A DNA stretch of 33,672 bases from Raineya orbicola (GTDB taxonomy: Bacteria; Bacteroidota; Bacteroidia; Cytophagales; Thermonemataceae). The translations under genes and the position numbers were made by a program. The notes below the pieces were generated by a model. It had not been told where the DNA came from, did not search any database, and saw only the letters and a list, made by a program, of their open reading frames with translations. The stretch lies in contig NZ_NKXO01000039.1 of assembly GCF_002843425.1 (NCBI RefSeq), forward strand, positions 1 to 33,672, written 5' to 3'. This document shows, piece by piece, positions 4,568 through 24,479 of the stretch. Every line of letters begins with the position of its first letter. The stretch's first letter is position 1.

Positions 4568-5362
4568 CTATATATGCACTTCCATACCCGATTTCACAAG
4601 GTCAGTAATATCAACCCTTACCCCAATGTATTTGTAAGGCTTGCCTTCGCTATCTAATACACCGCCAATGGTAGCAATTACCCAATAAGGTGTGCCGTCT
4701 TTGGCTCGGTTTTTTACAATACCTTGAAAGATTTTCCCTGCTTTGATAGTATCCCAAAGATTTTTGTACACTTCTTTGGGCATATCGGGGTGGCGGACAA
4801 TGTTATGAGGCTTGCCGATAAGCTCTTCGCGAGAATACTTGGAAATTTTGCAGAAGGTATCATTTACAAAAGTAATAGTTCCAAATTTATCCGTTTCAGA
4901 AACAATAGCGGCGGCATTGAGCAGATTGGTGCGAGCTTCTATTTCTGCTGATAGTCTATCTATCTCTTCTTCGCGACGAGCTATATCTTTATGAATAGTC
5001 TTCAAAAGTAATTTCATTTTCTCTTCTGTACTTTGATAGTTTGCCTGCATTTCTTTCAAAAGAAACACTTTGTAAAATTTCCCCTTTTCATATTCAAAGG
5101 TGCTTTCAATCATTTCTGCTAATGCTTTTTGCCCATCTAACTTTTTGATACTAACAACATTGGTATTGGTTTCAGATTTGAAGGGCAAAATTACATACTG
5201 CGACAAAGACGTATTACGCAAATCTACCGAAGTAGCACTGAAAAGTTGTAGAGCCGCAGGATTCGCATAGATAATTTTCTCTTCTCCTGTGGTAATTACG
5301 ATAGGCTGATGGATATTTTCAAAAATATCCTTCGCCGCTTGTGGTGTTGTAAAAGCGTTCAT
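4568..5362 (-). CDS. Aer-type PAS domain protein, second of a tandem pair
   Basis: This is a 264-residue soluble sensor protein with no recognisable output domain. Residues about 12-100 form a divergent N-terminal PAS-like domain (IVITTGEEKIIYANPAALQL). Residues about 108-150 are a charged coiled-coil linker (KDIARREEEIDRLSAEIEAR). Residues about 150-258 form a second PAS with PAC. The second PAS carries GKPHNIVRHPDMP and GIVKNRAKDGTPYWV, closely matching the FAD-binding PAS of the E. coli aerotaxis receptor Aer, so FAD binding and redox or oxygen sensing are plausible. There is no transmembrane segment, kinase, GGDEF or MCP signalling domain, so it probably signals through a partner. It follows its paralogue on the same strand after a gap of 45 bp, consistent with one transcript ending at the terminator at 4518-4567. 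Confidence 0.85.
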   Translation of the reverse strand: MNAFTTPQAAKDIFENIHQPIVITTGEEKIIYANPAALQLFSATSVDLRNTSLSQYVILPFKSETNTNVVSIKKLDGQKALAEMIESTFEYEKGKFYKVFLLKEMQANYQSTEEKMKLLLKTIHKDIARREEEIDRLSAEIEARTNLLNAAAIVSETDKFGTITFVNDTFCKISKYSREELIGKPHNIVRHPDMPKEVYKNLWDTIKAGKIFQGIVKNRAKDGTPYWVIATIGGVLDSEGKPYKYIGVRVDITDLVKSGMEVHI

Positions 5363-5407: not shown

Positions 5408-6217
5408 TTAAGGCGCTAAGTATTTTTCTACTTGCATACCTCTTTTGATAAGGTCGGTGATATCAATTCTTACACCGATATATTTGTAAGGTTTGCCCTC
5501 GCTATCCAGTACGCCGCCAATGGTAGCAATTACCCAGTAAGGCGTTCCGTCTTTGGCTCGGTTTTTTACGATACCTTGAAAGATTTTCCCTGCTTTGATG
5601 GTATCCCACATTTCCTTGAAAACGGCTTTAGGCATATCGGGGTGGCGAACAATATTATGAGGCTTGCCAATGAGTTCTTGGGGTGTATATTTAGCGATTC
5701 GGCAGAAAGTGTCATTCACAAAAGTAATAGTGCCATATTGGTCGGTTTCGGAAACAATGGCGGCGGCGTTGAGTATTTGGGTACGAGCTTCTATTTCTGC
5801 CGAGAGCTTATCAATTTCTTCTTCTCTGCGAGCTATATCCTTATGAATGGTTTTGAGCAAGAGTCTTATCTTTTCTTCTGAGCTTTGGTATTGAGTTTGC
5901 ATTTCTTTGAGCAAAATAATTTTGTGCATTTTGCCTTCATATTCGGCAAGGCTTTCAATAGCTTCTACCAAAGTGGTTTTATCTTCATTAAGTTTTTTTA
6001 TGTTAGCAATGCCTTTCCCTTCTTCTCTTTTGTAAGAGGCAGTAAGAAAGTTTTTCAAGGGGGTATTTTTAATATCTACAGAAGTGGCGTTCAAGAGTTG
6101 TAATGCCGCAGGGTTAGCGTAAATCAAATTATCCAATTCGTTAGCAATAAGAACTGGTTGATGAATATTCTCAAATAGTTCTTTTACAGGTCGTAAGGAA
6201 GTGCGTGGCGTGTCCAT
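5408..6217 (-). CDS. Aer-type PAS domain protein, first of a tandem pair
   Basis: This is a 269-residue paralogue of the next gene, with the same order: divergent PAS (about 15-105), coiled coil (about 115-155), Aer-like PAS/PAC (about 155-262). The last 150 residues of the two are nearly identical, including HNIVRHPDMP and the whole PAC region, while the first 100 have diverged clearly. That points to a duplication with different N-terminal inputs, or to gene conversion at the 3' ends. I chose the ATG at 6215-6217 because its N-terminus lines up with that of the paralogue; an in-frame ATG at 6227-6229 and a TTG at 6245-6247 are alternatives. There is no membrane segment or output domain. Role in redox sensing is inferred from the Aer similarity. 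Confidence 0.85.
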   Translation of the reverse strand: MDTPRTSLRPVKELFENIHQPVLIANELDNLIYANPAALQLLNATSVDIKNTPLKNFLTASYKREEGKGIANIKKLNEDKTTLVEAIESLAEYEGKMHKIILLKEMQTQYQSSEEKIRLLLKTIHKDIARREEEIDKLSAEIEARTQILNAAAIVSETDQYGTITFVNDTFCRIAKYTPQELIGKPHNIVRHPDMPKAVFKEMWDTIKAGKIFQGIVKNRAKDGTPYWVIATIGGVLDSEGKPYKYIGVRIDITDLIKRGMQVEKYLAP

Positions 6218-6345
6218 AGTAGTAAGCATTAGCAATTTCTCTTGCAAAAATAATATAGCTGATTAAGGAAAAAAATGAAAAGTTTCATAAGAATAGATGA
6301 TAAAAATCAAAAAAAATGTAAATTTGAAGGGTAACTACTCAATTT

Positions 6346-7797
6346 ATGGAAAACATATCTACCGAAAAGCAAATTGAACTTTTAGAACAAAACTTGCACA
6401 AGGTAAAAGGCAAATTTACATTGGCAGATGCTTCCGCTATTACAGGAGTACCCATAGAATATGCTCGCGAACTTCTCAATGCTTTGATGAGCAAGTATAT
6501 TTGTCATTTACAAGTAACTGAAAATGGAGATTTAATTTATGATTTTGGTACTTCGCCCACGCGTCGCGATGCCAAAACTTTTGCTGAACATTTCAAAGAT
6601 TTTCAAAACTTTCTATGGAAGGCTTTTAAGGTATTTTTCAAAGCGTGGATAGCGGTTACTTTGGTAGTGTATTTTGTGATTTTTTTACTAATTCTTTTGG
6701 CAATTATTATTGGAAGTCTGAGCGGTGGGAAGGATAGTAAAAGATCAAGTAAAGGTGATGGGGCGTTGTTTCGGCTCATAGGCAATATTTTTTACGCAAT
6801 TTTCAGGTGGCAAACCATTCAAAATGCAACCTACTACGAAAAAGACCGATACGGCTATCCTTACAAAACTTACAAGCCACAAGAATTTTCACTTTTTCCT
6901 AAAAAAGATAACAACCCTAAATCCCAAAAAAACTTTATTAGTGCAGTTTATGATTTTGTTTTTGGACCGCCTCGTGTAGAACCCGAGCCTCTTGCCAATC
7001 AGAAGGAAGCCGCCGCTTATGCAAGAAAAAATAAAGGTGTAATGGTGCTTTCGGAGTTTAAGGCTCTTACAGGGTTAAAAAATGAAGAAGCTGAAAATTT
7101 GATGACTGATTGCATTGCTCGTTACAACGGCTCGGCAGAAATTAGTCCCAATGCCGTTTTATATGCAGATTTTTATGAACTTACCCGTAGCAAAATCCAA
7201 ACAGAAGATGCTCCTATTATTTTTTACTGGGACGAGTATGAGCCTGAATATGTGCTTACAGGCAATACAGCAGGAAAAAACACTTGGATAGCCTTTATGA
7301 ATAGCTTTAATTTACTTTTTGCACTTCTAATGTTAGGGGGCTATGAAGATTGGAGTAATGATATGGGTGTAAGCCCTGATGTTATTTATTACGGATTAGG
7401 AGTAGTTCCATTGGCGTTTTCAATTATTTTTTTTGCAGTGCCTATTTTTAGGTATTTTGTTCTTATTCCGAAAAGAAAACAAAGGCACAAGAATAATATC
7501 CGTAAGCGTATTGCGAAAGTTATTTATCAGATAGGCTCAAAAAGAGATTTGAATATCAATGAAATTCTTGCAGAGGTAAATAAAGCGGAAGGTTTGGAAA
7601 AACTTTCCAAAGTACAAGTAGAAAAAATTATGAACGAAATGATTATTGATTGGGGCGGTGAAGTTAATGTTCAAAGTGATGATACACTGATTTATTCATT
7701 TTCACAAATGAAAACAGAGTTACAAGAAATCCAACAAATTCGTTTGAAAAGAGTTGATGAAGGCTTGGGGAAAATCTATTTTGATACAAATAATTGA
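6346..7797 (+). CDS. Membrane protein with three winged-helix-like modules
   Basis: This is a 483-residue protein of no named family that I recognise. Three segments of about 55-65 residues look like repeats of one winged-helix-like module: about 12-68, 218-280 and 388-453. Each starts with a helix-turn-helix-like pattern (FTLADASAITGVPIEYARELL; VMVLSEFKALTGLKNEEAENL; a third around NEILAEVNKAEGL) and ends in a short beta wing with the pattern GDLIYDF, NAVLYADF or DTLIYSF. Hydrophobic segments at about 100-124 and 346-374, with a weaker one at about 315-332, place it in the inner membrane with modules between them. A Tyr-rich linker lies at 160-185. It could sense cytosolic ligands or nucleic acid at the membrane, but no function can be assigned. 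TAAATTTG at 6319-6326 fits a -7 box. rplS follows after 76 bp with its own promoter. Confidence 0.75.
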   Translation: MENISTEKQIELLEQNLHKVKGKFTLADASAITGVPIEYARELLNALMSKYICHLQVTENGDLIYDFGTSPTRRDAKTFAEHFKDFQNFLWKAFKVFFKAWIAVTLVVYFVIFLLILLAIIIGSLSGGKDSKRSSKGDGALFRLIGNIFYAIFRWQTIQNATYYEKDRYGYPYKTYKPQEFSLFPKKDNNPKSQKNFISAVYDFVFGPPRVEPEPLANQKEAAAYARKNKGVMVLSEFKALTGLKNEEAENLMTDCIARYNGSAEISPNAVLYADFYELTRSKIQTEDAPIIFYWDEYEPEYVLTGNTAGKNTWIAFMNSFNLLFALLMLGGYEDWSNDMGVSPDVIYYGLGVVPLAFSIIFFAVPIFRYFVLIPKRKQRHKNNIRKRIAKVIYQIGSKRDLNINEILAEVNKAEGLEKLSKVQVEKIMNEMIIDWGGEVNVQSDDTLIYSFSQMKTELQEIQQIRLKRVDEGLGKIYFDTNN

Positions 7798-7804
7798 CAA
7801 AAAA

Positions 7805-7836
7805 TTTGGTATTTATCCGAATTTGTTATACATTTG
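7805..7836 (+). promoter_or_regulatory. Bacteroidota-type promoter of rplS
   Basis: TTTG at 7805-7808 and TACATTTG at 7829-7836 are separated by 20 nt, matching the TTTG-N19/20-TAnnTTTG consensus. The start codon of rplS follows 37 nt after the box. Confidence 0.8.
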
Positions 7837-9630: not shown

Positions 9631-12162
9631 ATGAAAGTTTTTCGGGCAGTTATCATCATATTTTGGAGTGCTTTTCTGGCGATAGCCTTGCAGTTTAGGC
9701 TCGCTGAAATTCCTTTCTTGAAAAATTACATACCTGAACAATTGGCTTCGGCTCCACCTTTGGGCAGATTTTTAGACCCTTTCAATGGATTTTGGCAAAA
9801 TGCAGAAGCTAAAAAACGTCCTACGGAAATTAAAATACAAGTTCCAGAGCTAAAAAACAAAGTAGAAATTTGGTTAGATAGTCGTCTTGTACCACATATT
9901 TTTGCTCAAAATGATTATGACCTTTATTTTGCACAGGGTTATATGATTGCGTCTGAAAGACTTTGGCAAATGGATTTTCTTACCCGATTTGCCGCAGGCA
10001 GGCTTTCAGAAGTTTTAGGCGAAAAAGCCCTTGAAATTGACCGCTCCCAACGCCGAATGGGTATTCTGCATTCTGCCGAAAGAACACTTGCCAATTTGAA
10101 GGATAGTATTTCCAAAATGGTTTTACAGGCTTATGCTGATGGGGTAAATGCTTACATTGCTTCGCTGAAACCTCATCAGTTCCCTTTGGAATATAAAATT
10201 TTAGATTACGCTCCCGAGCAATGGTCGCCGTTGAAATCAGTGCTGATGCTCAAATATATGGCTTATGACCTTTCTATCGCTTATACTGATGACTTTGCCA
10301 ACAGCCTTGCCGCTTCAATGTATTCGGAAAAGGCTATTGATAGTCTTTTTCCAAATACACCCTATCGCATAGAGCCTGTTATTCCTCAAAAAACATCTTT
10401 GGATTTCAAACCTTTGAAAAAACCTCAAAGACCGCCCAAGTATGATTCTATCAGTAGGGCTTTGCATCAAAATTTGAAAGAACTGCAAAGTCTATTACAA
10501 GCTCAAGCCGCAGGCGAAAAAGTAAAGGGTAGCAATAACTGGGCTGTTGGAGCAAAAAAAAGTGAAACGGGTTTTCCTATTTTAGCAGGAGACCCTCATT
10601 TAAGCCTGAAACTGCCTTCTATTTGGTACGAAATGCAACTCATTAGCCCTACTTGCAATGTGTATGGAGTAACTTTGCCCGGCACCCCTACTATTGTGAT
10701 AGGGTTTAATGAAAAAATTGCTTGGTCGCTTACCAATGCTTACACCGATGCTTCTGATTTTTACCAAATTCGCTTCAAAGATGATAAATTAGACGAATAT
10801 TGGCACAATGGCACTTGGAAAAAAACTATTACTCGTAAAGAAACCATTAAGGTAAGAGGCAGAGAAAAAGAGGTAGTAGATTACATTCGTTATACGCATC
10901 ACGGAGCTATTGTTTTAGAAAGCCCCGCTAAATTAGTTGCAGGTGAGCCTAATAAACTTTACTCTTTGGAAGTACCTTACAGGCACGCCTTACGTTGGAC
11001 AGCCCACGATACCACTACTAACGAAATCATAGCCTTTTACAAATTAAACCGAGCCACCAATTACAAAGAATTTCAAGAAAGTTTTGTTACTTTTGGCTAT
11101 CCTACGCAAGTAGTGGCTTATGCCGATGTAGATAAAAACATTGCTTTGCAAGTAATTGGCAAAATTCCTTTGCGTTGGAATGGACAAGGAAAATACATTT
11201 TAGATGGTTCTAATTCAACTTACGAGTATCAAGAATTTATTCCTTACAGCCAAAATCCGAAAGTTTTTAATCCCGAGCAACAATATGTAGCCTCTGCAAA
11301 CCAACTTATCGCAGATACGCTCACATATCCATATTATTTGGGTTACGAATATGTTTCGCCTGAAAGGGCTATTCGTATCAATGAGCGTTTGCGTTCTTGG
11401 ACAAAAGTGAAATATGAACAAATGCGAGAACTGCAAAATGATGTTTTAGGCATACACGCCCGTGAGTTACTTCCTGCTTTACTTTCGCTTTTAGATAGCA
11501 CACAGATTTCCAAAGAAGGGCAAAAAATTTTGCAAATTCTCAAGAAATGGGACTATCTCTACAAAGCCGAGTCGCTTGGGGCTACCTGTTTTGAGGCTTG
11601 GTATGATGAACTTCGTAAGGCGATTTGGGCTGATGAATTGGGCAGTATTTCGCATTACCCCGTCACAGACCAAATGATTAGAATTGTTTTGAAAGATACA
11701 ACTTCTCATTGGATTGATAACAAGAACACCAAAGAAATAAAAGAAACCTTAAAGATACTTGTACAAGAGAGTTTTGAAAAGGCTACTCAAATTTTGCAAA
11801 GCAAGCATCAAGGAAATGATGAAAACTGGGCTTGGGGCAAATACAAAGGCTTTGAGCTAAAGCACTTGCTTATTCCAAATTTAGGCATAAAAAATTTGAT
11901 GACATCAGGTTCTAAACGCACTGTAAATGCCACAGGTAGCGACCACGGACCCTCGTGGCGTATGATTGTAATGCTTGGTGCAAATACGCCTAAGGCTTAT
12001 GGAATTTATCCGGGTGGGCAGTCGGGTAATCCGGGCAGTTTTTATTACGACAATATGGTAGAAAATTGGCGTTTGGGCGAACTGGAAGAGCTAATTTTCC
12101 TGAAAAATACCCAAAGCCGTAATCCGAAAATTCTTACCAAAATTGTAATGGAAACAAATTGA
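9631..12162 (+). CDS. Penicillin acylase family protein (Ntn hydrolase)
   Basis: This 843-residue protein is made as a precursor that should cleave itself before Ser301, in KGSNNWAVG (299-307), the hallmark of penicillin-acylase-type N-terminal nucleophile hydrolases. The alpha part (about 60-270) has the usual VPHIFAQNDYDLYFAQGYMIASERLWQMD pattern in pieces; a linker (about 255-300) would be removed; the beta part starts at Ser301 and contains AGDPHLSLKLPSIWYE and a conserved W-S-L-T-N segment. The N-terminus (about 5-22) is one hydrophobic helix without a clear cleavage site, so it is a signal anchor or signal peptide for the periplasm. Family members cleave amide bonds of penicillins, cephalosporins or acyl-homoserine lactones; the substrate cannot be read from sequence. 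It heads a close run of plus-strand genes leading into pyrH. Confidence 0.92.
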   Translation: MKVFRAVIIIFWSAFLAIALQFRLAEIPFLKNYIPEQLASAPPLGRFLDPFNGFWQNAEAKKRPTEIKIQVPELKNKVEIWLDSRLVPHIFAQNDYDLYFAQGYMIASERLWQMDFLTRFAAGRLSEVLGEKALEIDRSQRRMGILHSAERTLANLKDSISKMVLQAYADGVNAYIASLKPHQFPLEYKILDYAPEQWSPLKSVLMLKYMAYDLSIAYTDDFANSLAASMYSEKAIDSLFPNTPYRIEPVIPQKTSLDFKPLKKPQRPPKYDSISRALHQNLKELQSLLQAQAAGEKVKGSNNWAVGAKKSETGFPILAGDPHLSLKLPSIWYEMQLISPTCNVYGVTLPGTPTIVIGFNEKIAWSLTNAYTDASDFYQIRFKDDKLDEYWHNGTWKKTITRKETIKVRGREKEVVDYIRYTHHGAIVLESPAKLVAGEPNKLYSLEVPYRHALRWTAHDTTTNEIIAFYKLNRATNYKEFQESFVTFGYPTQVVAYADVDKNIALQVIGKIPLRWNGQGKYILDGSNSTYEYQEFIPYSQNPKVFNPEQQYVASANQLIADTLTYPYYLGYEYVSPERAIRINERLRSWTKVKYEQMRELQNDVLGIHARELLPALLSLLDSTQISKEGQKILQILKKWDYLYKAESLGATCFEAWYDELRKAIWADELGSISHYPVTDQMIRIVLKDTTSHWIDNKNTKEIKETLKILVQESFEKATQILQSKHQGNDENWAWGKYKGFELKHLLIPNLGIKNLMTSGSKRTVNATGSDHGPSWRMIVMLGANTPKAYGIYPGGQSGNPGSFYYDNMVENWRLGELEELIFLKNTQSRNPKILTKIVMETN

Positions 12163-12167
12163 TTCTT

Positions 12168-13478
12168 ATGCAAAAACTTGTTATCAACAATTTTGGACCT
12201 ATTAAACAATTAGACCTTGATATTAAGGAAATAATGTTATTTATAGGTGTGCAAGCCAGTGGAAAAAGTACCGTTGCAAAAACCGCCTTCTTTTTTAAGT
12301 CTTTGAAAGATGATTTGTATAAATTTCTATTCAACTCCTTTGAAAAAAATGATTTTCAAAAACCCATAGGAAATTTTGCAAGGGTTGTTCGTCAAAAATT
12401 CTTAAACTATTACGGAGCAAGCACCTATTTGAGCGATATACAACTTCATTTTACATATACCCATAAATTGTGGATAAGTATAGAGCTTGAAAGAACAAAT
12501 AAATATGTTACTCCAAGATTTAGTGAATTATTTAAAGAAAGGTTTAATGAGTTAGCCAGAAAGGTCAGTAATTATGCCAATAAATATCATAGTAAAAACT
12601 TTTCTTTGCTTACTTCTAACGACCTTGAACAGATTGAAAGTGAAAAAAAGATTTTCTTTCAACAAATCCGCAAAGAGTGCGAGGAATTATTTCAAGAAAA
12701 TAGAGAATGTATATTTATACCTGCGGGTAGAAGTCTGTTGGCGGTACTTTCTGAACAACTTCAAAATATAGATACGCGTAACATAGATTTATTAACTAAA
12801 AGTTTTCTTGAAAAAATTACGTTTATCAGACCTTTTTTTAGAAAATCGTTGCGAGAGTTATTGATTGAAAAACGATGGCTTTTTAATATATCGCCCCAAG
12901 AAAATGAAAAACTTAATTTAGCTATACAAACTATTGAAAAAATCTTGAAGGGGGAATATCGTTCTGATGCTAGCGGTGAAAAAATTTTTCACGCAGAAAA
13001 TAAGTATGTCAAACTTAATTTTGCCTCTTCGGGGCAACAAGAATCTCTTTGGATTTTACTTTTACTTTTTATTATTCTTTCAGAGCAAAAAAGTGCTTTT
13101 ATTGTTATTGAAGAACCCGAAGCTCATTTATTCCCTGAAACACAGAAAGAAATTATCAATCTTATTGCGTTAGTTGCTAATCAGAATAATTCACAAGTAA
13201 TGATTACTACGCATAGTCCTTACATATTGGCTTCTTTCAATAACTTAATTTTAGCTCATAAAGTTGGAAATTTTCAAAAAGAAAAGGTCAAAGAAAAAAT
13301 AAATCCTTTTTTTTGGATCGATAGCGAACGAATTACTGCATATTTGTTGAATAATGGAGAAATTACAAACATTATTGATAAGGAACTAAAAATCATTCAA
13401 CAAGAGCAATTAGATACAATTTCACAAACTATAAATGCAGAATTTGATTTTTTGTTTCAGTTTGAAAGTGAATGGTGA
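12168..13478 (+). CDS. AAA/ABC-type ATPase, RecF/OLD-like head, defence-like
   Basis: This is a 436-residue P-loop ATPase of the type found in RecF, SMC, OLD and AAA_15/AAA_21 proteins. Walker A is GVQASGKST (27-35, Lys33). The ABC-like signature is FASSGQQES (285-293). Walker B with catalytic Glu is FIVIEEPEAHLFPE (311-324), and the H-switch is TTHSP (347-351). The start (LVINNFGPIKQLDLDI) is typical. There is no TOPRIM domain at the C-terminus, so it is not an OLD nuclease. The middle (about 75-280) is helical, AT-rich and not recognised. A TTG at 12159, overlapping the upstream stop, could also start it; I prefer the ATG at 12168. The next gene overlaps by one base (TGATG). DNA at 12541-12660 has 36 G+C in 120, clearly lower than the neighbours (28 of 60 at 10501-10560 and at 13981-14040), which suggests acquisition as a cassette. 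Confidence 0.85.
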   Translation: MQKLVINNFGPIKQLDLDIKEIMLFIGVQASGKSTVAKTAFFFKSLKDDLYKFLFNSFEKNDFQKPIGNFARVVRQKFLNYYGASTYLSDIQLHFTYTHKLWISIELERTNKYVTPRFSELFKERFNELARKVSNYANKYHSKNFSLLTSNDLEQIESEKKIFFQQIRKECEELFQENRECIFIPAGRSLLAVLSEQLQNIDTRNIDLLTKSFLEKITFIRPFFRKSLRELLIEKRWLFNISPQENEKLNLAIQTIEKILKGEYRSDASGEKIFHAENKYVKLNFASSGQQESLWILLLLFIILSEQKSAFIVIEEPEAHLFPETQKEIINLIALVANQNNSQVMITTHSPYILASFNNLILAHKVGNFQKEKVKEKINPFFWIDSERITAYLLNNGEITNIIDKELKIIQQEQLDTISQTINAEFDFLFQFESEW

Positions 13479-13921
13479 TGGCTTGCGAACCTTTTGATAA
13501 GTGTTCTGAATTTATTGCTGAAAAAAGAAATATAGTAAGCATTGTTGATAAGAAATCATCAAATAAATTTATTTACGAAAATCATCGCCAAGATGAACTT
13601 TCAAAATATAAGATTGATGGCTGTTTAATAAATGATAATGGTGCAAAATGTGATTTTTTGTTATTGAATTGTACGCTTAAAAAATCTTATTTTATAGAAC
13701 TTAAAGGTTCTGACTTACTGAAAGCTATTGAGCAGATTGAACGCTCAATTGACTTGCTTCATTGCAACTTTCAAGATTTTTCCGTAGAGGCACGAATAGT
13801 TCTTACACGCACTAACACCATAGATTTAAAGAGCACCAAACTAATAAAATTTGAGAAAAAATTAAAAGAACTGAATGGTAGTCTCAAAAGGCAAAATAGA
13901 GAAATGAGAGAACTAAACTAA
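13478..13921 (+). CDS. PD-(D/E)XK nuclease-like small protein, partner of the ATPase
   Basis: This 147-residue protein matches no named family I can cite with certainty. The segment [20 protein letters not shown] holds Asp59, then Glu74 and Lys76, which fits the D-x(n)-E-x-K core of PD-(D/E)XK nucleases, and KAIEQIERS (82-90) places a Gln where motif IV often lies. Cysteines at 3, 9, 49 and 58 could form a metal site. An ATG six bases upstream (13472) is an alternative start. It overlaps the ATPase stop as TGATG, so the two are probably translated together in fixed ratio. An ATPase sensor paired with a small nuclease is the layout of several anti-phage systems (for example Septu, with HNH, or PARIS, with TOPRIM), but the effector type here differs. 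pyrH begins 11 bases after its stop. Nuclease activity is inference from motif spacing. Confidence 0.65.
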
Positions 13922-13932
13922 ATTATCTTAAA

Positions 13933-14652
13933 ATGAAATACCAACGAATACTTTTGAAACTGAGCGGTGAGGCTCTTGCAGGCGATAGGCAGGAGTATGT
14001 TATCAATCCGCAGATTTTGGAGCGTTACGCCAAAGAAATCAAGAAAGTAGTAGAAAAAGGTGTGCAAGTAGCCATTGTAGTAGGCGGAGGCAATATTTAC
14101 AGAGGCTCAGAGGCGAATGTTTCAGGCATTGATAAGGTGCAAGGCGATTATATGGGAATGCTCGCTACCGTTATCAATGGAATGGCTTTGCAAAGTGCTA
14201 TTGAAAAGCAGGGCATTTACACACGCTTGATGTCTGCTATTCGGATTGAACAAGTTTGCGAGCCTTTTATTCGCCGAAGAGCTATTCGCCATTTGGAAAA
14301 AGGACGTGTCGTGATTTTTGCCGCAGGCACGGGTAATCCTTATTTTACCACAGACTCTGCCGCCTCTTTGAGGGCTATTGAAATTGAGGCACAAGTTGTG
14401 CTGAAAGGTACAAAAGTAGATGGCATCTACACCGCTGACCCTATGAAAGATAGTTCTGCTACTCGTTACAATAATCTTACCTTTGATGAAGTGTATCAGA
14501 AAGGCTTAAATGTGATGGATATGACTGCCTTCACACTTTGCAAAGAAAACAATTTGCCGATTATTGTGTTTGATATGAACCAAGAAGGTAATCTTTTGCG
14601 TATTGTGGAAGGTGAGGAAGTAGGAACTTTGGTAGCAATGGAAGCAAATTAG
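13933..14652 (+). CDS. pyrH: Uridylate (UMP) kinase
   Basis: PyrH phosphorylates UMP to UDP in pyrimidine nucleotide synthesis in the cytosol and is essential in most bacteria. The 239-residue length is normal. It belongs to the amino-acid-kinase fold: KLSGEAL (9-15) and GGGNIYRG (51-58) bind phosphates, and [19 protein letters not shown] holds the UMP and ATP site residues. [14 protein letters not shown] is another family block. It sits 11 bp downstream of the ATPase/nuclease-like pair, so it may share their transcript; I see no TAnnTTTG box in the short gap, although a promoter could lie within the upstream gene. The cytochrome-b-like gene starts 30 bp later. In many bacteria pyrH is next to tsf and frr; neither is here. 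Confidence 0.98.
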
Positions 14653-21063: not shown

Positions 21064-21191
21064 AATTATTTACTCAATTTTGGTACAAAATTTGATTTAT
21101 CCTGCACAAAAATACAAAAATCATCTTTTTTTGAGAATTTAGCGAATTTTTTTGTAATTTTACCAAAACATACACTAATTGAAAATTGCCT

Positions 21192-24100
21192 ATGAAACAC
21201 TTATTTACGCTACTGCTATTTTGTTTGCTTTCAAATATTGGTTTTGCCCAAAAATGGCAAGAACTGAATGACCAAGGCAGACAGCTTCGTAAAGAGAAAA
21301 AGTACAATGAGGCGATAGCCGCCTTTGAGAAAGCACTTGCAAAATTGGACTCAAAGAGCAAAAATTATGCTATTGTGATGAACAATTTGGCTCTTACGTA
21401 TGATGATATGCAGAATTTTGCCAAAGCCGAAGAGTGTTACAAAAAAGCCGCAGACATCTATAAAGCAACCGTAGGAGAGAAAAATGAGAATTATATCACT
21501 ACCATTGAAAATTTGGGCTATTTATACCAACAACAAGGCAAATTTGCTTTGGCAGAAGAATATTATTCACAGGCTTTGGCTTTGAACAAAGAAGTTTTAG
21601 GCACAAAAGACCCTCGTTATGCAGAGGCTTTGGAAAGTCTTGCCAAACTCGCCGAAAAAGCAGGCAAACGCGAACGTGCCGAAGCTCTTTATATTGAGCA
21701 TCTTAAACTGCAAAAAGATAATTTAGGTGAAAAAGACCCCACCTACGCCTCGGCTATGGAAAATTTGGCAAAGTTTTACCAAAATGAGGGAAAATTCACG
21801 CTTGCCGAAGATTATTTCAAAGATGTTATTAAAATTCGCAAACGTAATAAACAAGAGCAAAGCCCTGAATACGCCAATACACTCAATAATTTAGCCATTC
21901 TCTACAAGGTTTCGGGGCGACCTGCTCTTGCTGAAACTACCTATGAGGAGGCTCTAACAATTTATAAAGCCACTTTGGGCGAAAAAAGTAACGCTTATGC
22001 TACCATTGTAAAAAACTTGGCTGATTTGTATTTTATGCAAGCCAAATATGCCAAAGCCGAAGAGTATTACAAAATCTCTCGAAATATTATCAGAGAAAAT
22101 GTGGGTGATAAGCACCCTGATTACGCCCTTGCCTTGAAAGATTTAGGCAAAATTTATTACATTCGTAGTGAATATGCTGAAGCAGAAAAGGTTTTCTCGC
22201 AAGCCATAGATATTCTGAAAGTGCGTGGTAAAAACAATCGTGAGTATGCCTCACTCATCAATGACTTGGCAAATATCTATCGTATGCAAGGGCTTTTAGA
22301 GAAGGCAGAACCTTTGCTTGCAGAATCTATTCAAATCAGTAAGGAAATTTATGGCAACAAACACCCTGACTATGCTCGTTCGCTTTACAATTTAGCCCTT
22401 TTGTATGCTCGTAAAGATGGGCAAAGCGAACGCGTTGAAAAAATGTATCAGGAAACTCTTGCCGCCTGCCGTGATAATCCTGCTGATGCACAACTTTACA
22501 GCTCAGTGCTGAATGCCCTTGCCAATATCTACAACAACCGAGGCGATTTTGAAAAAGCAGAGCCGCTTTATCAAGAAGGCTTAAAAATTGCAAGAAAAAA
22601 TTTAGGTAAAAAACACCCCGCCTATGCTCGCTCTTTGAACAATTTGGCGGTAATGTACCGACAAAAAGCTAAATTTGAAAAAGCCATAGAACTTTTTAAC
22701 GAAGTGGCTCAAATCAGAAAAGAAACTTTGGGCGAAAAACACTTAGAGTACGGCAGAACTTTGCGTAATATCGCCGAGTTGTATTACGTCCAAAAACAAT
22801 ACGACAAGGCTGAACCTTATTACACAGAAGCCAATCACATTTTTTTAGACCAAATTCGTAAAAACTTCGCTACGCTTTCTGAAAAAGAAAAGGAAGTGTT
22901 TTTCAAATATTTTCAGCAGTCATTTGTGATGTTTCATTCATTTATGCTCTTGCGTAAAGATGCCAATCCTGATTTGATAGAAGAAGCCTACAACAATCAG
23001 TTGGCAATCAAGGGGATTATGCTTTCGGAGCAAAATCGTTTGCGAAGCATTATTCTTAAAGGAAAAGACCAAGAACTCACAAAACTCTATCAAAAGTGGC
23101 AAGCAAAGAAAGACTCGCTTGCTCAGATTTATATGAAAAACAATGAAACGGATAGTGTGCGTATCAATACAGAACCTTTGGAAAAAGAAATTGAAGAAAT
23201 TGAAAAGCAACTTTCGCTCAAATCGGCACTTTTTGCCCAAACACAGCATAGAAATTTCACTACTTTCAAAGATGTACAAAACGCATTAGGGCTTGATGAA
23301 GTAGCGGTTGAAATTGTGCGTTTTCACAAGTTTGAATATCGTTTCACAGATAGCGTGTATTATGTGGCTTTTGTAGCTTCCAAAAATCATTCCAAACCGC
23401 AATTAGCTTTTCTGTGGCGTACTACCCCCAAAACAGAACAAGAGGAGCTTGCTTTTTACCGAAATTCTATACGCACTCGTAAAGAGGATTTGGCTTCTTA
23501 CAATTTATTTTGGAAGCCGATTGAACAAAAAATTAGGGAAATCAACCCGAATGCTAAAAAAGTATATTTGGCTTGCGATGGAGTGTATTATGCAATCAAT
23601 CCGAATACGCTTTTGAACCCTGAAACCAAAAAATATTTGATAGATGAGCGTCCTGTGCAGATTGTGATTAGTACAAGAGATGTCGCAAAACTAAAAAATA
23701 CTACACAGCATCTTGCTTTGAAAAATGCTTTGCTATTAGGTTACCCCGACTACGAAGCAGACGAAGCAGATGGCATTTCTGCCCCTGTGGATACATTGAA
23801 ATTAGCGGAATTAGATGATATTACTCGTTATCGTAGTACAATTGTGAGCTTGCCAGGTACTCGCAAAGAAGTTGATGCTATTGAAAAGCTCCTGAAAACC
23901 AAAAATATAGAGGTACAAAAGCTCATTGAAAAAAAGGCAAATGAGAAAAGTATAAAAGAGGCTCAAAGCCCAACGATTTTGCATATTGCTACTCACGGAT
24001 ATTTTTTAGAAGATGTGGAAGAGGATTTGAACGAAGCAAAAACTTCAGAAAGCAAAGCTAAAAATATGAACCCGCTTATTCGTTCGGGGCTTTTGCTGGC

Positions 24101-24479
24101 GGGGGTACAAAAAACTTTACGAAAAGAAAGAAAGCCTAATGAAGATGGAATGCTCACTGCTTTTGAGGCTCAAACGATAGACTTGGGCGAAACAGACTTA
24201 GTAGTGCTTTCGGCTTGTGAAACAGGAGCAGGGGAAGTGAAAAATACCGAAGGTATTTTTGGCTTGCAAAGGGCTTTTCAGGTGGCAGGTGCTAATGCTG
24301 TGGTTACAAGCCTTTGGAAAGTAGATGATGCCGCTACCGAATTTCTGATGACTAATTTTTACAATTCTTGGATTAAAGGTGCAAATAAATACGATGCTCT
24401 GCATAATGCAATGAAAGAAACTCGTAAAAAATTTCCACAACCTTATTATTGGGGAGCATTTGTAATGGTGAATAATTAA
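21192..24479 (+). CDS. Exported TPR-CHAT protein (caspase-like protease candidate)
   Basis: This is a 1095-residue protein. An N-terminal signal peptide ends in LSNIGFAQ (about 12-19), so it is exported, probably to the periplasm. Residues about 20-560 are some 12 tetratricopeptide repeats of the 42-residue kinesin-light-chain type, with patterns such as PAYARSLNNLAVMYRQ and LGEKHLEYGRTLRN. A coiled-coil-rich linker (about 610-690) follows. The C-terminal 290 residues are a CHAT domain: the catalytic His is H935 in HIATHGYF and the catalytic Cys is C1009 in LSACETGAGE, then GLQRAFQVAGA and VTSLWKVDD. CHAT proteases act in caspase-like cleavage, but most exported TPR-CHAT proteins have no known target. 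I chose the ATG at 21192 rather than the TTG at 21186 because it begins the signal peptide. The DUF2490 gene follows closely. Confidence 0.93.
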   Translation: MKHLFTLLLFCLLSNIGFAQKWQELNDQGRQLRKEKKYNEAIAAFEKALAKLDSKSKNYAIVMNNLALTYDDMQNFAKAEECYKKAADIYKATVGEKNENYITTIENLGYLYQQQGKFALAEEYYSQALALNKEVLGTKDPRYAEALESLAKLAEKAGKRERAEALYIEHLKLQKDNLGEKDPTYASAMENLAKFYQNEGKFTLAEDYFKDVIKIRKRNKQEQSPEYANTLNNLAILYKVSGRPALAETTYEEALTIYKATLGEKSNAYATIVKNLADLYFMQAKYAKAEEYYKISRNIIRENVGDKHPDYALALKDLGKIYYIRSEYAEAEKVFSQAIDILKVRGKNNREYASLINDLANIYRMQGLLEKAEPLLAESIQISKEIYGNKHPDYARSLYNLALLYARKDGQSERVEKMYQETLAACRDNPADAQLYSSVLNALANIYNNRGDFEKAEPLYQEGLKIARKNLGKKHPAYARSLNNLAVMYRQKAKFEKAIELFNEVAQIRKETLGEKHLEYGRTLRNIAELYYVQKQYDKAEPYYTEANHIFLDQIRKNFATLSEKEKEVFFKYFQQSFVMFHSFMLLRKDANPDLIEEAYNNQLAIKGIMLSEQNRLRSIILKGKDQELTKLYQKWQAKKDSLAQIYMKNNETDSVRINTEPLEKEIEEIEKQLSLKSALFAQTQHRNFTTFKDVQNALGLDEVAVEIVRFHKFEYRFTDSVYYVAFVASKNHSKPQLAFLWRTTPKTEQEELAFYRNSIRTRKEDLASYNLFWKPIEQKIREINPNAKKVYLACDGVYYAINPNTLLNPETKKYLIDERPVQIVISTRDVAKLKNTTQHLALKNALLLGYPDYEADEADGISAPVDTLKLAELDDITRYRSTIVSLPGTRKEVDAIEKLLKTKNIEVQKLIEKKANEKSIKEAQSPTILHIATHGYFLEDVEEDLNEAKTSESKAKNMNPLIRSGLLLAGVQKTLRKERKPNEDGMLTAFEAQTIDLGETDLVVLSACETGAGEVKNTEGIFGLQRAFQVAGANAVVTSLWKVDDAATEFLMTNFYNSWIKGANKYDALHNAMKETRKKFPQPYYWGAFVMVNN

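Follow-up and report, generated by a model that had tools for sequence, protein, structure and literature searches.

The gene at 6346-7797

The window (the whole stretch of DNA that was analysed, 33,672 nucleotides) carries on its plus strand, at 6346-7797, an open reading frame for a protein of 483 amino acids, in which three modules predicted to fold as winged helices alternate with membrane helices. It is the only full-length copy of this gene in its own genome. The features of the protein are listed below, with residues numbered along the 483 amino acids.

6346..7797, plus strand: open reading frame of 483 aa, tri-winged-helix membrane protein
6361..6549, plus strand: module M1, predicted winged helix, residues 6-68 (hhalign, AlphaFold2, shuffles, matches to DriD and UFL1)
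6643..6717, plus strand: TM1, residues 100-124 (best 19-residue KD >1.6 in 82/82 relatives)
6757..6816, plus strand: predicted amphipathic helix, residues 138-157, interfacial or re-entrant (AlphaFold2, hydrophobicity)
6829..6873, plus strand: predicted beta hairpin, residues 162-176, TYYEKDRYGYPYKTY (predicted structures, conservation)
6928..6981, plus strand: most conserved segment, residues 195-212, containing FISAVYDFVFGPPR (mean conservation 0.676, top of 17 segments)
6982..7185, plus strand: module M2, predicted winged helix, residues 213-280 (hhalign, second prediction, shuffles, match to DriD)
7222..7272, plus strand: conserved segment before TM2, residues 293-309, FYWDEYEPEYVLTGNTA (mean conservation 0.642; N307 in 82/82)
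7282..7344, plus strand: TM2, residues 313-333 (>1.6 in 80% of 82 relatives)
7384..7461, plus strand: TM3, residues 347-372 (>1.6 in 94% of 82 relatives; R369 in 82/82)
7462..7530, plus strand: basic stretch after TM3, residues 373-395 (mean net charge +7.0)
7492..7704, plus strand: module M3, predicted winged helix, residues 383-453 (hhalign, AlphaFold2, shuffles, match to Zur)

Searched against Pfam and NCBIfam, the protein gave no match over the curated cut-offs, and an alignment of 26 rows (A2) produced only weak, scattered matches. The protein alone found no match among PDB sequences; the best match of a PDB profile search was 1q8c (E = 0.0034), spanning TM3 and the start of M3, and sequence comparison gave no convincing relative with a solved structure. 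No homologue turned up in the plasmids and viral contigs that were searched, and the part of the literature covered (on a plant protein considered below, on tandem winged helices in bacterial membranes and on PspA partners) held no description of the family. The protein represents a membrane protein family without a Pfam or NCBIfam name that is previously undescribed.

Three related winged-helix modules

The original prediction saw in this reading frame three related modules divided by membrane helices, and this is borne out by profile-profile matches, by shuffles and by the predicted folds. To compare the modules we used hhalign with family sub-alignments of 81-82 rows, and every pair shows a strong match [M1 (5-75) with M2 (208-285), probability 98.3, E = 2e-14; M1 with M3 (380-460), probability 96.2, E = 2.5e-9; M2 with M3, probability 96.3, E = 1.8e-9], against at most 6.6% for four control segments from outside the modules compared with any module, two of which overlap and hence match each other. 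When the columns of one partner were shuffled, the real score was reached in 0 of 60 shuffles for each pair [M1-M2, 69.9 versus a shuffle maximum of 17.6; M1-M3, 45.9 versus 17.3; M2-M3, 48.3 versus 14.6], so that the internal repeat is more alike than chance in all three pairs. The relation extends to single sequences, with M2 of the query matching module 1 of one relative (L006) at E = 2.7e-7. The hydrophobic segments that divide the modules lie at residues 100-124, 313-333 and 347-372.

AlphaFold2 models the full protein with a mean pLDDT of 80.5 and a pTM of 0.73, and in the model every module has the order H-S-H-H-S-S, with the two-stranded wing of a winged helix, at residues 6-66, 215-275 and about 383-451. 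A second prediction for residues 158-312, built from 66 of 77 listed stretches, likewise yields a winged helix, with a block pLDDT of 90-95 over 218-277. Compared with solved structures, the predicted modules match winged helices [M1: DriD, Z 8.8, 2.0 A, 66 aligned, and UFL1, Z 7.8, 1.7 A, 62 aligned; M2: DriD, Z 8.1, 2.4 A, 72 aligned; M3: Zur, Z 9.3, 2.1 A, 69 aligned], DriD being common to the matches of M1 and M2. As Z values of 8 to 9 are modest and are tied among many winged helices, these matches speak for the fold and not for a function. The proposal that each module would fold as a winged helix is upheld in the models. That a membrane protein should contain a winged helix in repeated form, which had been called unusual, is supported by the profile matches, the shuffles and the predicted folds alike. 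The motif (L/V)-(I/L)-Y-x-(D/S)-F, said to end the wing of all three, stands in M2 (VLYADF), whereas M1 (LIYDF) and M3 (LIYSF) do not fit it; when M1 and M2 are aligned on the invariant Phe, their Tyr residues are offset by one position.

Orientation in the membrane

Averaged over the family, net charge goes from +4.3 ahead of TM1 to -0.1 directly behind it; it is +4.0 over residues 158-213, -2.9 before TM2, -1.5 in the TM2-TM3 loop and +7.0 after TM3. Read by the positive-inside rule, the positive charge that follows TM3 and the negative charge of the TM2-TM3 loop argue that M3 is cytosolic, and M2 likewise. The side of M1 turns on the helix at 140-157, which is amphipathic (hydrophobic moment 0.36); a 19-residue stretch above 1.6 between residues 126 and 200 occurs in only 7% of the 82 relatives. 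M1 would be cytosolic if this helix returns the chain, and three crossings would put M1 outside. The expectation that all modules face the cytosol therefore agrees with the charge pattern for M2 and M3 and extends to M1 only in the case of a returning helix, and at least two of the three modules are probably cytosolic.

Conservation and charge

Conservation peaks outside the modules, in the segments 195-212 and 293-309 that flank M2 beside the membrane, and polar residues within or next to the membrane helices are conserved as well (N319, N322, R369). The latter would suit a sensor, channel or transporter in which the winged helices, by binding a small ligand or each other, would gate the membrane part; however, clear membrane helices number only three and matches to channel and transporter families are no better than chance (Ion_trans, E = 0.31 and 0.058; DddT, E = 1.2), and we regard such a role as quite unlikely. 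No His is conserved across the family and Cys53 is found in 68 of the 82 relatives, which speaks against a metal enzyme. A metal enzyme or iron-sulfur function was rejected because a conserved metal-binding pattern is absent, and a metalloprotease such as VIR3 was rejected because a family lacking a conserved His has no HEXXH; VIR3 itself is a different protein that has HEXXH (PMC9166295).

The fold is that of DNA-binding winged helices, and membrane-anchored winged-helix regulators exist, of which ToxR is reportedly one. One possibility would be a transcription regulator anchored in the membrane, as in ToxR/CadC, whose modules bind DNA. Against this, the modules are net negative on average over the 82 relatives [M1 -2.24, M2 -4.27 and M3 -0.51 in wider windows of 65-73 residues; -2.2, -4.9 and -4.6 in tight windows], and the whole module is above 0 in 9% (M1), 4% (M2) and 34% (M3) of them. 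The recognition-helix regions have a mean of about -1.5 and are above 0 in 2 to 12% of the 82 relatives, versus charges of 0 to +10 in six helix-turn-helix stretches of the same genome; the basic recognition helix and positive domain of a DNA-binding regulator are not seen. The 34% for M3 and the near-neutral charge (-1 to +1) of the single-module paralogues, described below, weigh the other way. With modules that are on average net negative and recognition helices that lack a basic character, the protein is unlikely to bind DNA; the nucleic-acid ligand that had been suggested for the modules finds no support, and the DNA-binding regulator was set aside on charge. It would also lack a conserved neighbour to regulate and, if M1 does not lie outside, a large extracytoplasmic sensor domain; altogether we hold this explanation to be very unlikely.

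Distribution of the family and single-module relatives

Scanning one genome of each species for a sequence pattern and confirming the hits by tblastn gave 79 loci. Going by their record titles, the 76 of them placed in the tree come from nine named phyla as well as KSB1, SAR324 and bins without a name. The tree mostly follows lineage, and transfer or mis-binned contigs may account for the mixing of some loci. The 82-row alignment and the 77-row tree leave out L072, L093 and L094, which are truncated or interrupted, and among the loci from the search of relatives' genomes only L003, L006, L008, L013 and L014 were added to the 82 rows. The named Bacteroidota strains among the carriers (L027, L035, L042, L070, L079, L085) are mostly filamentous bacteria, so that a link to filamentous growth is conceivable. 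One Chitinophagales MAG holds a homologue split (L093:7966-9096) by about 1.1 kb with a 358-aa reading frame that is transposase-like by eye, and this insertion-sequence-like interruption suggests that the gene may be dispensable there. Another genome (G006) has, some 115 kb from its full copy, a second copy truncated to the 3' end (L011:1462-1779).

Closer to the window, the full gene occurs in 9 of 39 order relatives (10 matches, one of which, in G003, is a single module) and in seven of the eight genomes of the window's own family. The remaining genome, G003 (92% complete), yielded a single-module gene alone and is counted as a non-carrier. A draw of 395 genomes from the window's phylum gave 14 matches, 11 to the full gene and 3 to single modules. 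G161 and G305, whose copies are split, and G423 (13% contamination) are counted as carriers.

Using a profile of M1 and M2, we found small single-module genes in six of the eight genomes of the window's family, including its own (C20:43034-43222, match at 43055-43213, E = 1.4e-10). Judged by eye, their layout is one membrane helix or hairpin, then a basic stretch, then one module, and in three genomes of other families membrane helices are followed by a C-terminal module. Since single modules thus stand behind membrane helices, the module is a reusable membrane-attached part, and the gene in the window a tripled version of it.

Genomic neighbourhood

We compared the gene neighbours at the 79 loci, taking as much as 7 kb to either side of each, and in the window. 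No cluster of shared neighbours occurs at more than 15 loci; the largest is a mixed signalling group (by eye, from one example), and the others reach at most 8. Operon logic was rejected, a conserved neighbourhood being absent over the 79 loci and the window. Synteny with the window is found in the closest relative, L020, alone. Downstream, a promoter-like site TTTG-N-TANNTTTG lies at 7805-7836, 37 bp before rplS, and sites of this type number 8 in the window versus 2.95 expected. As rplS has its own promoter-like site, the 6346-7797 gene is probably transcribed apart from it.

Other features of the window may be noted in passing. Two adjacent PAS-domain genes on the minus strand (4568-5362 and 5408-6247) look like a tandem duplication; both also lie beside the L020 copy of the gene, and each is about 70% identical to the other's counterpart there. 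At 12159-13921 sit an AAA_15/AAA_21 ATPase gene and a 149-aa reading frame without a Pfam match, flanked by a gene for penicillin amidase on one side and the gene at 13933 on the other. Both are absent from the otherwise syntenic L020, and they are a possible recent insertion and perhaps a defence pair. A TPR-repeat protein of 1097 aa with a C-terminal CHAT domain is encoded at 21186-24479.

Co-occurrence with PspA

PspA/IM30 is the bacterial ESCRT-III and mends membranes. It was the one family submitted to a partner test (PspA_IM30, PF04012), after ESCRT-II had appeared among the matches of M2 and tandem winged helices in papers on ESCRT. Among the order relatives, PF04012 exceeds its cut-off in 9 of 9 carriers versus 12 of 30 non-carriers. 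The same is true of 10 out of 10 further carriers elsewhere in the phylum and of 2 of the 20 non-carriers in the further-phylum sample, one of which (G036) is already among the order relatives. In the draw of 395 genomes, for which the first 7 candidates per genome were scored, PspA is over the Pfam cut-off in 155 and full-length in 57, where full-length means 100 bits or more, a line set after a gap in the scores was seen. All 11 carriers are within the 57, so that full-length PspA is present in 11/11 carriers versus 46/384 others, and by genus in 8/8 carrier genera against a base of 34/171 (P about 1e-6, with deeper phylogeny ignored). With Pfam's own cut-off the comparison is 11/11 carriers against a base of 155/395 (P = 2.7e-5); the carriers of this draw belong to only five families (f1, f47, f51, f52, f74), and these base rates are those of the window's phylum.

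Genomes with any module copy at E <1e-9 have full-length PspA in 16 of 17 cases (the weakest copy, in G320, has E = 1.1e-10), and in 16 of 19 once the weaker module matches of G380 (E = 2.6e-4) and G216 (E = 3.8e-4) are admitted. One genome with single modules, G316, has no full-length PspA among the candidates scored. When 50 carriers were taken from the 79-locus scan, PspA was found in 46, including 6/6 of the named Bacteroidota strains, and the four carriers without it are all MAGs. Merged into distinct carriers, with five overlaps recognised by identical PspA coordinates, the count is 60 of 64.

The two genes are not neighbours. The nearest pair among the coordinates listed is 15 kb apart (G021:C4), and the other pairs checked are on different contigs or hundreds of kb apart. 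In the window's own genome pspA lies at G000:C20:9825-10481, on the same contig as the single-module gene and 33 kb from it. The pattern is nested, with many PspA genomes lacking the gene and few carriers lacking PspA; it fits an accessory partner and equally two old genes that are kept or lost together. The link is correlative, and shared ancestry or lifestyle could explain the co-occurrence. In the available part of a 2024 survey of PSP partners, the protein is not described.

One must therefore weigh a protein-interaction scaffold or assembly factor of the membrane that is unrelated to PspA, the co-occurrence being phylogenetic. Repeated winged helices are scaffolds elsewhere, as in UFL1/UFBP1 (PMC9627666), and the lack of adjacency to pspA and of a conserved neighbourhood also speaks for this reading; the presence of PspA in 60/64 carriers, and of full-length PspA in all 8 carrier genera of the 395-genome draw, speaks against it. 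We consider this a possible, though tentative, alternative.

A proposed membrane scaffold with PspA as a candidate client

The best explanation, to which we assign a probability of roughly 0.42, is an integral inner-membrane scaffold whose winged helices bind proteins rather than DNA, with PspA as the most likely client. The three winged-helix modules would hang on three transmembrane helices of the inner membrane, would bind proteins and not DNA, and may recruit or hold PspA/IM30 at the membrane, as eukaryotic winged helices start ESCRT-III assembly; of these steps we infer protein binding, the identity of the client and its recruitment. Taken by itself the protein-scaffold part is fairly probable, and PspA as the client rather doubtful.

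That prokaryotes have in this protein a membrane receptor for PspA/Vipp1 is unlikely, but if so, winged helices recruiting ESCRT-III would not be a eukaryotic invention, and a homologue in the inner envelope of the chloroplast would serve to anchor VIPP1 to the membrane. A family found almost only alongside PspA, with the fold that recruits eukaryotic ESCRT-III, offers a concrete candidate for a further partner. Even without PspA, the family shows a winged-helix module put to repeated use as a part that is attached to the membrane and probably binds proteins.

Comparison with known systems

Among the weak Pfam names that come up repeatedly for the module is the C-terminal domain of EutK (PF16365), also a winged helix; EutK is a microcompartment protein. 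This domain weakly matches 2 of 26 single modules (best E = 0.0027). It also matches four of the six small paralogues, with E = 0.0021 at best, and no match of these six proteins exceeds the curated cut-off. Other weak names (AbiEi_4, HTH_15) score equally, so membership with EutK does not follow.

Winged helices of ESCRT-II (VPS25 and partners), of the CHMP7 N-terminus and of LEM2 recruit ESCRT-III in eukaryotes; they are tandem or membrane-attached and act, as we propose here, as protein adaptors at the membrane (PMC5069351, PMC7618577). An ESCRT-II chain (3cuq_A) ranks fourth among the matches of M2 (Z 7.8, 3.5 A, 69 aligned), tied with many winged helices. These systems, however, are eukaryotic and the match noted is one of fold, whereas here three modules are threaded between transmembrane helices of a single bacterial protein and the client is inferred. 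The winged-helix repeats of UFL1/UFBP1, the UFM1 ligase, serve as a scaffold (PMC9627666). They share with the window protein the repetition of winged helices, and the UFL1 winged helix resembles M1 in fold; a DDRGK1-UFL1 chain gives M3 a weak profile match (E = 0.57). The difference is that this is a eukaryotic ligase, and the likeness is one of fold only.

AT5G03900 of Arabidopsis would have the same order of parts as the protein studied here. A version of its sequence that does not come from a database scores 105.9 bits against the family profile, versus 2.5 for the best of 200 shuffles; because these letters are not those of a database record and may be biased towards the family, the relation is a lead and no test. 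It carries a label of iron-sulfur cluster biosynthesis, which has no support in the residues conserved here. Membrane partners of PspA that are named in the literature consulted are PspB/PspC, LiaI/LiaF and PspM, in Proteobacteria, Firmicutes and Actinobacteria (PMC11237479). AT5G03900 is described as an inner-envelope chloroplast protein with two transmembrane helices and unexplored function (PMC3565376), and the inner envelope of the chloroplast is where IM30/Vipp1 is reported as well (PMC13051332).
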